Shown here: positions 37,054-43,438 of the stretch, piece after piece
Layout: each line of letters begins with the position of its first letter
How positions within the stretch are numbered: the first letter of the stretch is position 1
Assembly (NCBI RefSeq): GCF_013282155.1
Contig: NZ_BLWI01000001.1
Location: 1-64,000 of the forward strand
Source: Sulfitobacter sp. HGT1
GTDB lineage: Bacteria > Pseudomonadota > Alphaproteobacteria > Rhodobacterales > Rhodobacteraceae
DNA length: 64,000 nt
Reading direction: 5' to 3'
The notes under the pieces: model-generated
The model's database searches: none
Seen by the model: the letters and a program-made list of their open reading frames with translations, nothing else
What the model was told of the DNA's origin: nothing
Made by a program: the position numbers and the translations under genes

Positions 37054-38076
37054 TTAGCCAACCATCCCGACAATATCATAGGTTTTTCTCAGGATCGGCG
37101 CAGTGATCTCGCGGGCCTGGGTGGCACCGTTTGCAAGGATGCGGTCAATCTCGGCTGTGTCGGCCATCAGTTCGGCCATGCGCGTGCTGATCGGCGACAT
37201 TTTGGCGACGGCCAGATCGGCCAACAGCGGCTTGAAGGTGCCGAATTGCTGACCACCGACTTCGGCCAGCACCTGTTCAACGGTCTGGTCGTTGAGCGCG
37301 GCATAGATGTTCACCAGATTGCGCGCCTCGGGGCGGTCCTTCAGGCCTTCGATCTCGGAGGGCAAAGCATCGGGATCGGTCTTGGCCTTGCGGATCTTTT
37401 TGGCGATTGTGTCGGCATCGTCGGTCAGGTTGATCCGGCTGGCATCCGATGGATCGGATTTCGACATCTTTTTCGACCCGTCGCGCAAGGACATCACGCG
37501 GGTTGCGGCACCTTCGATCACCGGTTCGGTCAGCGGAAAGAAATCAACGCCGTAGTCATGGTTGAACTTGGCCGCGATGTCGCGGGTCAGTTCCAGATGC
37601 TGCTTTTGGTCTTCGCCCACGGGCACATGGGTGGCGTGGTAAATCAGAATGTCGGCGGCCATCAGCGCGGGATAGGCAAACAGGCCCAAGGAAGCGGTCT
37701 CGGCGTTTTTGCCGGCCTTGTCTTTCCACTGGGTCATGCGGCCCATCCAGCCCATGCGGGCAACACAGTTAAAGATCCACGCAAGCTGTGCATGCTCGGG
37801 AACCTGGGATTGATTGATCAGAATGGATTTCTGCGGATCAACGCCCGCTGCAATAAATCCGGCGGCCAGTTCGCGTGTGTTGTGGCGCAAGGTGGCGGGG
37901 TCTTGAAGCTTGGCCGTGATCGCGTGCAGGTCCACCATGCAATAGATGGTCTGATATGACCCTTCATCCTGCATGTCGACGAAACGCTTCATCGCGCCCA
38001 GATAATTGCCAAGGGTCAGGCCGCCGGACGGCTGAATGCCCGAGAACACGCGCGGGGTGAATTGGGTGTCGGTCAT
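37054..38076 (-). CDS. trpS: Tryptophan--tRNA ligase
   Basis: A 340-residue class I synthetase that charges tRNA-Trp. The HIGH-type region is [20 protein letters not shown] (TLGN), and the KMSKS loop is intact as [29 protein letters not shown] is also typical. Length is normal. It is divergent from the rhomboid-like gene across 76 bp. Confidence 0.97.
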
Positions 38077-38152
38077 GGCAACGCTCCGATAAGGCTGGAA
38101 AAGACGGCACGATGGGCTTACCCATGCGCACCAACCCCGTCAAGGAGCCGCT

Positions 38153-38839
38153 ATGGAAGACCCTGATTTTCAACCACCCGTAAACCCGATGCCTGCCGTG
38201 GTTACAGTGGTGTTTCTGGCCATCGCCGGTATCGAGGCAGGGCTGTCCCTGGCCGAGGCGGGTATTATCGGCGGCCCCGGTGCCATCGGCTGGCGACTGG
38301 CATTGATCCGCGATTACGGATTTTCGAACGACATCTTTGACTGGATGATCGCCAACTGGCGCTTCCCTGTGTCGGAGACATTGCGCGCCGTGAGCTATTC
38401 ATTTGTGCATCTGGGGTTCACCCATGCGCTTTTTGCCATGGTGCTATTGTTGGCCCTTGGCAAAATGGTGGCCGAGGCCTTGGGGCAGCTGGCGTTTCTG
38501 GCGATATTCTTTGTCTCGGGGATCATCGGGGCGGTTCTCTATGCGCTGGCCCTGAATGATCCGGTTTGGCTGGTCGGGGCCTATCCGAATGTTTACGGGC
38601 TGATCGGGGCCTATTCCTTTGTCATGTGGCGCAGATTGTCAGGGCTGGGCGCGCAGCAATTGCGTGCGTTTTCGCTGATTGCGGTGTTGATGGGGATACA
38701 GCTTTTGTGGGGCGTGTTCTTTGAGGCGGGCACCCAATGGCTGGCGGACCTTTTCGGGTTCTTCGTGGGCTTTGGATTGTGCTTTGTCCTGGCTCCCGGT
38801 GAATGGTTGAAATTGCGCAACCGTGTCCGGCATCGTTGA
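38153..38839 (+). CDS. Rhomboid-fold membrane protein lacking the catalytic residues
   Basis: A 228-residue protein with six membrane segments in the rhomboid order. The fold is recognisable by the first-TM loop and the segment FTHALFAMVLLLALGKMV, which matches the rhomboid HxxxN helix with H91 present but the Asn replaced by A95. The catalytic GxSG is G142-A-Y144-P (GAYPNVYGLIG), so the nucleophile serine is Tyr. The last-helix catalytic His position is D199 (ADLFGFFVG). It should thus be a pseudo-protease, possibly binding or steering other membrane proteins. Confidence 0.8.
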   Translation: MEDPDFQPPVNPMPAVVTVVFLAIAGIEAGLSLAEAGIIGGPGAIGWRLALIRDYGFSNDIFDWMIANWRFPVSETLRAVSYSFVHLGFTHALFAMVLLLALGKMVAEALGQLAFLAIFFVSGIIGAVLYALALNDPVWLVGAYPNVYGLIGAYSFVMWRRLSGLGAQQLRAFSLIAVLMGIQLLWGVFFEAGTQWLADLFGFFVGFGLCFVLAPGEWLKLRNRVRHR

Positions 38840-38907: not shown

Positions 38908-40500
38908 TCAGCCGCGTTTCAATGCGCGTTTGAATTCGCCCAGTTTGAAGGCTCCGATGATCTGGCCAGAGCCGAAGTAGCTGATGGCCGCGATCAGGAT
39001 TAGCAGCAGAAGCCCGATGCCGCGCCACCAGGACTGACCCAGCAGCGGTTGCATCGCGACATTGCCGATCCACAAGGCAACCCCCATGATTGCGGAGGCC
39101 GCAAGGATACGCCAAATGCGTTTGTGAAAGCGGGCATCGAATTTCGCGGCCAGGCCAAAGCCGCGTGCGCCATAGGCCAGCAGCCCGAACATGGCCCAAC
39201 CGGCGAGGGTCGTCGCGATCGCCGGGGCGAACCAGCCGATAAAGGGGCTGAGGCCCACGGCCAGCACCACATTCACGATCATTGCCACAACGGCAAAATA
39301 GAACGGGCGTTTGGTGTCTTCGCGGGCATAATACAGCGGTTGCAGGATTTTTTGCAGGACAAAGGCGGGCAGGCCGAGGCCGTAGATCGCCACCGCAATG
39401 GCAATCGCCGCCGCATCGTCGACGGTTGTGGCACCACGTTGAAACAGGACCGATGCCAGAGTGAAGGGGATTACCATCAAGGCCACGGCAGAGGGGATTG
39501 TCAGGGCAAGGGAGACTTCGGCGGCGCGGCTGATCTGGGTGTGCGATCCCTGTTCATCCCCGGCCTTGAGGCGGCGCGACAGATCGGGAAGCAGGACCAC
39601 GCCGATGGCAATGCCCACCACGCCAAGCGGCAGTTGGTACAAGCGATCGGCGTAGTTGAGCCAGGCCACGGCCCCTTCGTAAAAGCTGGCCACCTGACGA
39701 CCGACCAGCAGGTTGATCTGCATCACACCGCCCGCCAGTGCGGCCGGGGCTGCGATGATGGCCAGGCGTTTCAATTCCGGCGTCATGCGGGGTCTGCGGT
39801 TGAAGCCCAAGGTGAAGCCCGCGCGTTTGGCGGCCCACCACACCAGCGCCAGTTGCGCAATGCCCGCAATCGGCACGGACAGGGCCAGTGTGTTGCCGAT
39901 ATGCAGGCCGAGGGCCTTGTCGATGCCGAGGCCCAACGCCTCTGATCCGTCGCGGCCAAGGGCGGCCCCAACGAGCACGGCAATGATAAAGATGATGTTC
40001 AGCACGACAGGCGCAGCCGCAGCAGCCATAAAGCGCCCCGTGGCATTCAATACCCCCGATACCAGTGCCGCGAGCGAGATGAAAAGGATATAGGGAAAGG
40101 CAAGCCGCCCGTATTCAACGGCCAGATCAAAGCGTTCGTCCCCTTTGAACCCCGACGCCATCAGCAACACCAGACCGGGCATGGCGATGATGCCGATGAG
40201 GGTGAACAGGGTCAGGATAAACGCCATACCGACAAAGGCATCCTGGGCGAACTCCTCGGGGCCGTCGCCGCTTTCGAGCTTTTTCGAGAACATCGGCACA
40301 AAGGCCATGTTGAACGCGCCTTCGGCAAAGAAGCGGCGAAACATGTTGGGCAGGGAAAACGCCACCAAGAAGGCTTCGGCTGCGGGGCCGGAGCCGAGAT
40401 ATCCAGCAACCATCACATCGCGAATGAACCCCATGACGCGGCTGAGAAGGGTCCATATTCCGACGGTGAAAAAGCCGGACATCAGGCGGATTGGTTTCAT
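38908..40500 (-). CDS. murJ: Lipid II flippase MurJ (MviN)
   Basis: A 530-residue inner-membrane protein of the MviN/MurJ family with about 14 helices that flips lipid II for peptidoglycan synthesis. The N-terminus GIWTLLSRVMGFIRDVMVAGYLG and SLPNMFRRFFAEGAFNMAFVP (quoted in part as PNMFRRFFAEGAFNMAFVP) are diagnostic, with functionally important arginines in RDV and RRFFAEG. I chose MKPIRLMSG at 40500; the ribosome-binding site there is poor, and the frame remains open further upstream. It lies downstream of glnD on the same strand, as in several rhodobacters. Confidence 0.95.
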   Translation of the reverse strand: MKPIRLMSGFFTVGIWTLLSRVMGFIRDVMVAGYLGSGPAAEAFLVAFSLPNMFRRFFAEGAFNMAFVPMFSKKLESGDGPEEFAQDAFVGMAFILTLFTLIGIIAMPGLVLLMASGFKGDERFDLAVEYGRLAFPYILFISLAALVSGVLNATGRFMAAAAAPVVLNIIFIIAVLVGAALGRDGSEALGLGIDKALGLHIGNTLALSVPIAGIAQLALVWWAAKRAGFTLGFNRRPRMTPELKRLAIIAAPAALAGGVMQINLLVGRQVASFYEGAVAWLNYADRLYQLPLGVVGIAIGVVLLPDLSRRLKAGDEQGSHTQISRAAEVSLALTIPSAVALMVIPFTLASVLFQRGATTVDDAAAIAIAVAIYGLGLPAFVLQKILQPLYYAREDTKRPFYFAVVAMIVNVVLAVGLSPFIGWFAPAIATTLAGWAMFGLLAYGARGFGLAAKFDARFHKRIWRILAASAIMGVALWIGNVAMQPLLGQSWWRGIGLLLLILIAAISYFGSGQIIGAFKLGEFKRALKRG

Positions 40501-40651
40501 TGGAATGCTTGCCCTGTGAGTGCGATGCAAATGGCCTACCGTTTGGCGTGCCATAGCGCAATTGTTGATGTGCGGCGGGCAATGGCCGGCAACGGGAAGC
40601 CGCCGGCCCTGTTTTCGCCTGCTGGCTGAGGCGGGCGCGCGTGGTCCGGCG

Positions 40652-43438
40652 TTAATCGGCGGCCCGCTCGACCCCTTCGGCAATCGCAAGGCGGAGACGT
40701 TTTTCAAGGGTCCGCTGCTTGCTTTCGGTGTAATATTTCAGCCCGAACATATCTTTGACATAGAAGGTATCGACCACCTGTTCGCCATAGGTCGCGATGA
40801 CTGCATTGGCGATATAGACGTTCGATTCGGCCAGGCTGCGCGCCAGATCGTATAGCAAACCGGGGCGATCGCGGGTGTCGACTTCGATGATGGTATAGAT
40901 TTCAGAGCCATCATTATCAAAGGTGATGTGGGTCGGGACCTTGAATGCCCTTTCGCGTTTTTTGACCTTGTCGCGGGATTTCAGGGCCTCGCGGGCCAGG
41001 ATCTCTCCCTTGAGGGTTTTCGAGATCATCTGCCTGAGGCGGGGCAGGCGGGCAGCGTCATAGGGGTTGCCTTCGGCATCCTGTATCCAGAACGCATCGG
41101 TGACATAGCCGTCTTTGGTCGTGTAGCTGCGGGCGTCGACCACATTGGCACCCACCAGCGCCAGCGCCCCTGCAAGACGTGCAAAGATACCGGGGTGATC
41201 TGCCATGACAAAACACGCACGGGTGGCATCGCGGTCCTCGTCTGGGTGCAGGTCGATGCGAATTTCGCCATCCTTGATATCACGCAGCAACTGGGCAAAC
41301 ACGACATGGGCCGTGATGTGCAGCCCTTGCCAATAGGGCGGATAGTGGCGTGCGGTTTCGGTCTGCAAATCCTTGCGCGGCCAATCGGCAAGGGCTGCAC
41401 GCAAGGTCTTTTTCGCCTCGTCGCCGCGGTTCGCACGGTTCAGATCCTCAAGCCCTGTTTCAAGGGCTTTCTTGGTTTGGCGGTACAGGCCACGGATCAG
41501 CACGGCCTTCCAGTTGTTCCAGGTGTTCGGCCCGACGCCGCGAATATCGCAAACGGTCAACACACACAGCAGATCAAGCCGCTTGACCGTCTGTACCGCT
41601 TTGGCGAAGTCACGCACGGTGCGCGGGTCGGCAATATCGCGTTTCTGGGCCATGTCCGACATCAGCAGGTGATAGCGCACCAGCCATTCGACAGTATCGA
41701 CTTCGGTCTTGTTCAGCCCCAGCCGTGGCGCGATCTTGCGGGCCATTTGGGCCCCAAGGATCGAATGGTCTTCGGGGCGCCCCTTGGCGATATCGTGCAA
41801 AAGCAGGGCCACATAAATGACTTTGCGGTTCACGCCGCGTTTCAGGATATTCGACGCGACCGGCAGGTCTTCCTCAAGCTCGCCCTTTTCAATGAGGGCA
41901 AGGTTGGTGATGCACTGGATCGTATGTTCGTCGACGGTGTAGCTGTGATACATATTGAACTGCATCATCGCGACGATGTTTTCGAATTCGGGAATAAAGG
42001 CAGACAGAACGCCCAGTTCGTTCATCCGGCGCAGGCCGCGTTCGGGGTTGCCGTGTTTGAGCATCAGATCAAGGAAAATGCGCTGCGCTTCGGCATTGTT
42101 GCGCATGTCGTCGTCGATCAGGTTCAGGTTGCGTTTCACCAGCCGCATGGCGTCCGGGTGGATCAACATGCCGGTCCGCAACGCTTCCTCGAAGATGCGC
42201 AACAGGTTCAGCTTGTCCGAAATGAACGCAGCATCATCGACAATCGCAAGCCGGCCCACGACGACTTCGTAGCCGTCGCGCATCTTGGGGCGGCGGCGGA
42301 ATATGCGTTCCAGCAGGGGTTCTGCCTTGATGTGGATGCTTTCCAGCTTGGTCAGGAAGATGCGGGTCAGCTCGCCCACTTGGGTGGCGTGGCGGAAATA
42401 GGCCTGCATGAACACTTCGACACCGCGTCTGCCGCCCGTATCCGTATAGCCCATCGCCTCGGCGACGGCGACCTGCATGTCAAAGGTCAGCTGTTCGGTT
42501 GCGCGCCCAGACAACAAATGCAGGTGCCCGCGTACCGCCCAAAGAAAATCCTCGGCGGCGACGAAGGTTTTGAATTCTTCTTCCAGAAAGATGCCGCGCT
42601 CCACCAGATCGGCAGCGTTTTCGACGTTGTAAATATGCTTGGCGATCCAGAACAGGGATTGCAAATCGCGTAGGCCCCCCTTGGCTTCCTTGACGTTCGG
42701 TTCAACCTGATAGCGCAGACCCTGTTTGCGGTGGCGCAGGGCGCGCTCTTCCAGCTTGGCCTCGATGAAACTACGGCCCGAACCGGAAAAAAGATCGGTC
42801 TTCAGCGTCTTGTCCAGCTCGGCGGTCAGTTCAAGGTCGCCCGCGATAAACCGGTGTTCGAGCAAGGCGGTCTGGATGGTGAAATCCTCGGCCCCAAGGC
42901 GCACGCAATCACGGATCGTGCGGGTGGAATGGCCAACCTTCAGCTTCAAATCCCACAGCATATACAGCATGGATTCGATCACGCTTTCGGTCCAGGCGGT
43001 CGCTTTGTAGGGGATCAAAAACAGCAGATCAACGTCCGAGAACGGGGCCATTTCGCCCCTGCCATACCCGCCGACGCCGATCACCGCCAAGCGTTCGCCC
43101 GACGTCGGGTTGGGCTTGGGATGCAATTTCTGCACCGCAATCTGCAACGTGCTGCGGACCAGCTGATCTGTCAAAAAACAATAGGCGGAGGTCATTGCGC
43201 GCGCGTCAAACGGTGTCGCGGCAAAGGCGCGGGCGATTTCAGCGCGGCCTGCTTTCTGGGCATTCCCAAGAATACGCACAGCCGCTGCACGGACCTGGCT
43301 GCTATCCGATGCTTCTTCGAATGCCACAGTCAGGGCGTCGGCGATGGCGTCTTCGTCAAAGATCAACTCGGGGGCGCTGATCAGGTGAAGCGCTGTAGCT
43401 TCACCTGTCTCTGCTTGTGCAGCTAATGGTTTTACCAC
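40652..43438 (-). CDS. glnD: [Protein-PII] uridylyltransferase/uridylyl-removing enzyme GlnD
   Basis: A 928-residue nitrogen sensor that uridylylates PII proteins when glutamine is low and removes UMP when it is high. Domains in order: nucleotidyltransferase with GVGGYGRGEMAPFSDVDLLFL (seen as GYGRGEMAPFSDVDLLF; active-site Asp pair DVD), then an HD domain with VALLLHDIAKGRPEDHS, and two C-terminal ACT domains (about 735-820 and 845-928) for glutamine sensing. Length is standard. It follows the LpoA-like lipoprotein gene by 10 bp on the same strand. Confidence 0.96.
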   Translation of the reverse strand: MVKPLAAQAETGEATALHLISAPELIFDEDAIADALTVAFEEASDSSQVRAAAVRILGNAQKAGRAEIARAFAATPFDARAMTSAYCFLTDQLVRSTLQIAVQKLHPKPNPTSGERLAVIGVGGYGRGEMAPFSDVDLLFLIPYKATAWTESVIESMLYMLWDLKLKVGHSTRTIRDCVRLGAEDFTIQTALLEHRFIAGDLELTAELDKTLKTDLFSGSGRSFIEAKLEERALRHRKQGLRYQVEPNVKEAKGGLRDLQSLFWIAKHIYNVENAADLVERGIFLEEEFKTFVAAEDFLWAVRGHLHLLSGRATEQLTFDMQVAVAEAMGYTDTGGRRGVEVFMQAYFRHATQVGELTRIFLTKLESIHIKAEPLLERIFRRRPKMRDGYEVVVGRLAIVDDAAFISDKLNLLRIFEEALRTGMLIHPDAMRLVKRNLNLIDDDMRNNAEAQRIFLDLMLKHGNPERGLRRMNELGVLSAFIPEFENIVAMMQFNMYHSYTVDEHTIQCITNLALIEKGELEEDLPVASNILKRGVNRKVIYVALLLHDIAKGRPEDHSILGAQMARKIAPRLGLNKTEVDTVEWLVRYHLLMSDMAQKRDIADPRTVRDFAKAVQTVKRLDLLCVLTVCDIRGVGPNTWNNWKAVLIRGLYRQTKKALETGLEDLNRANRGDEAKKTLRAALADWPRKDLQTETARHYPPYWQGLHITAHVVFAQLLRDIKDGEIRIDLHPDEDRDATRACFVMADHPGIFARLAGALALVGANVVDARSYTTKDGYVTDAFWIQDAEGNPYDAARLPRLRQMISKTLKGEILAREALKSRDKVKKRERAFKVPTHITFDNDGSEIYTIIEVDTRDRPGLLYDLARSLAESNVYIANAVIATYGEQVVDTFYVKDMFGLKYYTESKQRTLEKRLRLAIAEGVERAAD

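Follow-up and report, generated by a model that had tools for sequence, protein, structure and literature searches.

A clade of putative rhomboid pseudoproteases beside trpS in the Rhodobacteraceae

What does a rhomboid do in the membrane when the residues with which its relatives cut are no longer there? This question is raised by one gene of Sulfitobacter sp. HGT1, found in a stretch of 64,000 nucleotides (contig NZ_BLWI01000001.1, positions 1 to 64,000) that was analysed as a whole and is called the window here. The gene stands between trpS and murJ, and its surroundings are arranged as follows:

37054 to 38076, minus strand: trpS, the divergent neighbour (NCBIfam TIGR00233, 325.5 bits against a cut-off of 176.75)
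38077 to 38152, no strand: the 76 bp gap between the divergent start codons of trpS and the pseudo-rhomboid gene
38153 to 38839, plus strand: the pseudo-rhomboid gene, an open reading frame with an ATG start, 228 amino acids and a Pfam Rhomboid match
38908 to 40527, minus strand: murJ, the convergent neighbour (NCBIfam TIGR01695, 374.6 bits against a cut-off of 235.55); its start was set by the analysts, and the listed frame reaches 40707
40652 to 43438, minus strand: glnD, the next gene past murJ (NCBIfam NF003467, 1273.3 bits against a cut-off of 959)

That the product belongs to the rhomboid superfamily is not a matter of chance. The Pfam Rhomboid profile (PF01694) matches it with 73.6 bits against a cut-off of 22.6 (E 2.4e-20), and all 53 members of its group that were aligned match the same profile at E 0.01 or better. 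Among these 53 there was no confident match to any other Pfam family, a single sub-threshold row, for YdjM, belonging to the window protein. The initial annotation had called the product a pseudo-rhomboid, with the three features of the active site replaced and the framework of six helices retained, and had asked whether the replacements are conserved in the Rhodobacteraceae. The codons concerned, and what relatives have at the same positions, are these:

38234 to 38236, plus strand: E28, in the first helix; Glu in 136 of 136 relatives and in seven of the eight active rhomboids at the locus
38291 to 38296, plus strand: W47-R48, the WR motif of loop 1; W-R in 127 of 136, R48 in 136 of 136
38435 to 38437, plus strand: A95, at the Asn position of HxxxN; Asn in 0 of 136
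38582 to 38587, plus strand: Y144-P145 (Y144 at 38582 to 38584), where GxSG has Ser-Gly; the first is aromatic in 127 of 136, the second Pro in 132 of 136
38747 to 38749, plus strand: D199, at the position of the catalytic His; acidic (Asp or Glu) in 133 of 136 and His in none
38756 to 38770, plus strand: G202-xxx-G206, the GxxxG of the last helix; [G/A]xxxG in 135 of 136, strict GxxxG in 125 of 136

All three replacements are thus borne out by the codons, and Y144, D199 and A95 fail the GxSG serine, the last-helix histidine and the HxxxN motif that would mark an active rhomboid protease. The counts refer to the conserved REPLACEMENTS, for which 145 sequences were read; nine of them repeated the core of another exactly, being genes that had been fetched twice, and without these the set comprises 136. 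This set was drawn from the better-scoring listed matches of the family search, from 14 of 30 weaker ones that were searched again, and from L203; matches of the family search for which no coordinates were listed are under-sampled in it. Outside the set stand the active rhomboids of the locus, the remnants, the unlinked rhomboids and L040.

Within the set, the same kinds of replacement are kept. The Ser position is occupied by Phe, Tyr or Trp in 127 members and by Ser in two, and the aromatic residue, the Pro and the acid occur all together in 124 of the 136. A canonical Ser with His is present in none of the 136, and none has Ser, His and Asn together. Columns 144 and 199, on the other hand, are Ser and His in every one of 45 comparison rhomboid frames (27 from other families of the class and 18 second copies from Rhodobacteraceae), and column 95 is Asn in all eight active rhomboids of the trpS-murJ locus. 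The His of HxxxN is kept in the window protein (H91) and in 81 of the 136 relatives. Invariant throughout the set are E28, R48, G103 and G142, while Y148 is kept in 128; across the 53 aligned members there are seven invariant columns. When the 228 columns are ranked by conservation, P145 comes 14th, the acid at 199 comes 53rd and the aromatic residue at 144 comes 89th, so that P145 is the most constrained of the replacements. The typical signature of the clade is G[GA][FY]PxxYGLIG with W[VIL]A[DE]xxGF, as read off the alignments and not counted as a whole pattern. To judge from these alignments, the protease site has been replaced by a conserved pair of an aromatic residue and Pro together with an acid, and the WR and GxxxG motifs have been kept.

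A few other traits of these proteins deserve a word. The C-terminal tail, residues 215 to 228, is conserved and basic (consensus PGGxxRxxxxLRxR, with R226 in 126 of 136), and is a possible candidate for a contact site in the cytosol. Two proteins, L102 (genome G059) and L106 (G209), keep Ser at GxSG while the His site is D or N, and L100 has Thr; they may represent a stepwise loss of the active site or a Ser that was regained, and they would hint that His was lost first. One frame, at L040:4001-4498 in a metagenome-assembled genome, is cut at 166 amino acids, either by error or by a real truncation. Another, L095 (G032:C51:40602-41279), stands at the usual place with an in-frame TGA and was counted in the set of 136 without its last motif.

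Does the protein still fold as a rhomboid? The AlphaFold2 model, built on the alignment of 53 sequences, has a pLDDT of 91.0 and a pTM of 0.85. It contains six long helices (residues 15-35, 89-110, 112-133, 144-165, 169-190 and 196-213) and further helices in loop 1, and when it was compared by Foldseek/VIA-align with GlpG (5f5j) the result was Z 18.9 with an rmsd of 3.1 over 176 residues; the retained six-helix framework of the initial annotation is therefore upheld in the model. The same comparison gave Z 18.4 and an rmsd of 3.6 over 201 residues for iRhom1 (9xy4). For Derlin-1 (7y4w) it gave Z 11.2 and an rmsd of 5.1 over 185; at scores under about 13, a match between helical bundles may reflect no more than their arrangement.

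With this fold at hand, one can ask whether another pair of residues does the cutting. A cryptic protease with an alternative Ser-His pair would have to draw on residues such as H86, which is kept in 118 of the 136, and the best partner found for it is a Ser, Thr or Cys at residue 155, present together with H86 in 113. But no combination of Ser, Thr or Cys with His is universal in the set, and the canonical Ser, His and Asn are together in none of the 136. Moreover, according to the available text of PMC3149277, a Pro placed just before the Ser virtually abolishes the activity of AarA; here the Pro comes just after that position. Hidden proteolysis of this kind is very improbable.

A second thought is that the old site has taken up a new chemistry or a new ligand, be it an ion, a lipid or a metal, by way of the acid at 199, the invariant E28 and the conserved Y148. 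The figures in its favour are the acid at the lost His (133 of 136), E28 (136 of 136) and Y148 (128 of 136). E28, however, is found also in seven of the eight active rhomboids of the locus and so cannot be a product of the loss; residue 199 is only 53rd of 228 in conservation, and the 53 members give no confident match to another family. We regard this explanation as improbable, though less so than hidden proteolysis.

How widespread is the pseudo-rhomboid? When 295 genomes of the Rhodobacteraceae, from 294 genera, were searched with the protein, 281 gave a match. The match is strong (E 1e-22 or better) in 264 of the 295, and 134 of these were read residue by residue. The 17 weaker matches (E worse than 1e-22) were all examined: seven are active rhomboids at the same locus, the doubtful L120 among them; seven more are active with no trpS or murJ in the DNA read; two are remnants beside trpS; and the last is L106. 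For the order, 121 genomes from 58 genera were searched with a profile; all 121 gave a match, and one of these, G745, is an active copy at the locus. In a sample of the class, 109 of 385 genomes had a match at E 1e-8, the best one outside the family scoring 79 bits, and the 25 best loci outside the family hold 27 open reading frames, all with Ser and His. Among the alphaproteobacterial loci read, the inactive type has so far turned up only in the Rhodobacteraceae.

The family is not uniform in this respect. Fourteen genomes gave no match. Nine of them have trpS, and the wide surroundings of six were read without finding a rhomboid in any of the six; the other five have no match for trpS either, possibly because the assemblies are incomplete. 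The absence of a copy near trpS in some genera means that the pseudo-rhomboid is dispensable in some lineages. Degraded remnants of it lie beside trpS at L229 (G157) and at L231/L256 (G167). They may come from genera that are losing the gene, and since G157 is an 80% complete draft, an assembly error is possible there.

Is the gene then simply on its way out? Compared with nine relatives of the Sulfitobacter group by the Nei-Gojobori method, the pseudo-rhomboid has a dN/dS of 0.065-0.165, next to 0.021-0.100 for trpS and 0.042-0.173 for murJ (the latter in the eight relatives that have it); dS exceeds 1 in several of the comparisons, which makes the values rough. Even so, purifying selection on the pseudo-rhomboid is clear, if a little less strict than on trpS. 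A decaying remnant kept by chance could appeal to the remnants at the locus in G157 and G167 (L229, L231 and L256) and to the genera without a copy, but against it stand the dN/dS, the seven invariant columns across 53 members and the strong match in 264 of 295 genomes, and its probability is negligible. For the window's own lineage a pseudogene is ruled out by the same dN/dS of 0.065-0.165. This strong selection, combined with retention at the same spot in most of the genera sampled, makes it very probable that the protein has a job in the membrane that involves no cutting; the handling of other membrane proteins is perhaps that job.

Another intriguing question is where this protein came from, and its locus gives a good part of the answer. 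The gene is divergent from trpS in all 40 loci read with wide surroundings, and murJ is convergent to it in 33 of them; trpS adjoins it as well in each of 18 named genome contigs, most of them from Sulfitobacter and Roseobacter. In six of six families outside the Rhodobacteraceae, murJ and trpS lie together with the rhomboid absent, and glnD is there in four of the six. This arrangement implies that the rhomboid gene came to stand between murJ and trpS on the strand opposite to theirs. Eight Rhodobacteraceae stretches likewise have glnD, murJ and trpS with no rhomboid (L259, L261, L262, L264, L265, L269, L270 and L274). Such empty sites occur in scattered genera, and those eight are either losses or places where the gene was never gained.

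At this same place some Rhodobacteraceae have a rhomboid that is still intact. Beside trpS, L104, L105, L108, L110, L111, L113 and L202 all have Ser, His and Asn. The eighth and doubtful case, L120, is adjacent to murJ and has the three residues as well. In the DNA read for it (L120/L227) there are murJ and glnD and no trpS; the protein is without E28 and R48 and clusters with the outside families, and may accordingly be a rhomboid of another kind. The active rhomboids of the locus share with the pseudo-rhomboid the chromosomal place, the superfamily and, in seven of eight, E28 and R48, and differ from it in keeping Ser, His and Asn.

Trees of the neighbouring proteins and of the rhomboids themselves put this in order. 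In the tree of TrpS, MurJ and GlnD, a branch with a support of 100 sets the eight genera with an active locus apart from 55 other rows. If the six outside families are taken as the root of the neighbour-protein tree, all but one of the eight active genera fall below the crown (support 100) that holds the inactive copies. The one in conflict is L224 (the gene copy also listed as L110, active, with TrpS data only), which lies inside the inactive-bearing crown beside long-branched empty-site genera; the conflict is absent from the neighbour-protein tree built without the empty-site genera. The genera with an active locus are mostly early-branching. In the rhomboid tree, with the columns of the active site masked, the 30 inactive rows form one clade (100/98). 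The simplest account is that the active site was lost once, at the trpS-murJ locus.

In what manner the loss occurred can be told in two ways. On the rhomboid tree, two of the syntenic active copies, L105 and L108, cluster with unlinked active copies, which makes possible a duplication before the loss: one copy would have stayed and lost its site, and the other would have moved and remained active. Three candidate sisters of the inactive clade were compared by AU tests (L105 with L108; the other five active copies that are syntenic; all seven), and none was rejected (p 0.236, 0.368 and 0.155 in that order), so that a single copy at the locus may have been converted outright, or a duplication may have come first. 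In either case a protease gene would have settled between murJ and trpS and then lost its active site; the descent from an active protease gene lying there is well supported.

Having lost the protease site, to which of the known dead rhomboids does this protein come close? The iRhoms are similar in having a dead rhomboid fold and a conserved Pro beside the lost Ser. As defined in the available text of PMC3149277, they have a large homology domain between helices 1 and 2, a long N terminus and a Pro before the Ser site. The pseudo-rhomboid, with 228 amino acids, a helix at 15-35 and the next long helix from 89, has no large domain and no long N terminus. At the place of the iRhom GPx motif it has A143; Pro is found at 143 in two of 136 relatives, and after the Ser site in 132 of 136. 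The derlins (Der1, Dfm1 and Derlin-1) also have a dead rhomboid-like fold, and WR and GxxxG are kept as in Dfm1, with a lower fold score. The derlin motifs are present in the clade (WR in 127 of 136, [G/A]xxxG in 135 of 136), though they are general rhomboid motifs too, and no DER1 row was obtained among the 53 members (Pfam, E 0.01). GlpG has a like fold (Z 18.9) and differs in its active Ser201-His254 dyad; the NCBIfam model for GlpG gave 17 bits against a cut-off of 250, and that for rhombosortase 22.3 against 84. By its profile match the protein is of the rhomboid superfamily, by its defining residues it is no protease, and the defining features of iRhoms and derlins are wanting; on this sequence evidence it belongs to a separate bacterial clade of predicted rhomboid pseudoproteases, neither iRhom nor derlin.

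A role like that of the iRhoms can be considered even so. In this explanation the pseudo-rhomboid would be a regulator that competes for, or shields, the substrates of one or more active rhomboids in the same cell. A possible partner is at hand: L001, the one other Pfam Rhomboid match in the window's genome, retains Ser, His and Asn. In 18 genomes of other genera a second match was fetched (L189-L201 and L204-L208), and each of the 18 is a rhomboid that has Ser and His, present in addition to a strong match at the main locus and with trpS and murJ absent from the fetched DNA. The fold, too, is equally near to iRhom1 and GlpG (Z 18.4 and 18.9, a tie). Yet the iRhom homology domain is missing, the N terminus is short, the Pro stands after rather than before the Ser site, and the window's genome has no second member of the nearer active group. 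Such a regulator is unlikely, although it deserves more credit than a new ligand.

The reading preferred here is that of a rhomboid which has lost catalysis, became fixed in the Rhodobacteraceae crown, derives from an active protease and most likely holds its clients without cutting them; taken as a whole, we would stake on it neither more nor less than against it. The pseudo-rhomboid would bind membrane proteins as clients and leave them uncut; FtsH or another processive protease would then take these over, or the pseudo-rhomboid would shield them in the manner of a chaperone. The chaperone or quality-control role suggested in the initial annotation can be argued by analogy, from the yeast-derlin motifs that are kept and from the two peptidase-M41 (FtsH-type) matches in the window's genome. 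A more specific form of the idea, a bacterial counterpart of the derlins, that is, a dedicated, family-wide pseudoprotease of one-lineage origin that recognises membrane clients and either retains them or delivers them to FtsH, while living relatives still have the active type at the same locus, is conceivable, and we are inclined to doubt it.

The closest precedent in bacteria is YqgP (GluP) of Bacillus subtilis, a rhomboid with a protease-independent role as an adaptor of FtsH: in the available text of PMC7231995, the active-site mutant of YqgP still presents MgtE to FtsH. YqgP, however, is itself proteolytically active and bears an N-terminal domain in the cytosol, and the pseudo-rhomboid has neither feature; no added cytosolic domain is present, and its first helix begins at residue 15. 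The same source states that the adaptor role requires an unobstructed active site, and against the parallel is the fact that an aromatic residue and Pro occupy the Ser-Gly site here. The aromatic-Pro pair at the old site suggests that clients would be held outside the old catalytic groove, unlike in YqgP.

The motifs that are kept point to where such contacts may lie. In the available text of PMC8641752, yeast Dfm1 requires WR and GxxxG, which are not sufficient, and WR serves the binding of clients by this derlin (PMC8641752, PMC12615303). The latter source, as far as its text is available, also places WR in about 80% of rhomboids and finds GxxxG to matter for stability; with WR so widespread and GxxxG stabilising, the retention of both could reflect the fold alone. 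The full W-R pair is found in 127 of 136 inactive members but in only two of the eight active rhomboids at the locus, seven of which have the Arg. Such an enrichment would fit a role for W-R, though the loop is aligned with some uncertainty in this comparison.

As for what has been reported before, the available literature presents rhomboid pseudoproteases as otherwise eukaryotic (iRhoms and derlins), the bacterial case being an active enzyme, YqgP, with a second role as adaptor. No report on a natural dead rhomboid of the Rhodobacteraceae was recognised in the literature searched, and older surveys (Lemberg and Freeman 2007; Kinch and Grishin 2013) may mention inactive bacterial members. One practical consequence concerns annotation: members of this clade that are called proteases from a Rhomboid match alone would be misnamed.

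The Rhodobacteraceae include cultured and genetically tractable members. With a dead rhomboid in most of the genera sampled, and a live version at the same place in their relatives, the family offers a natural pair of before and after. This pair lets one ask what rhomboids do when they are not cutting, and in the window's genome one can ask it with only one other rhomboid present.
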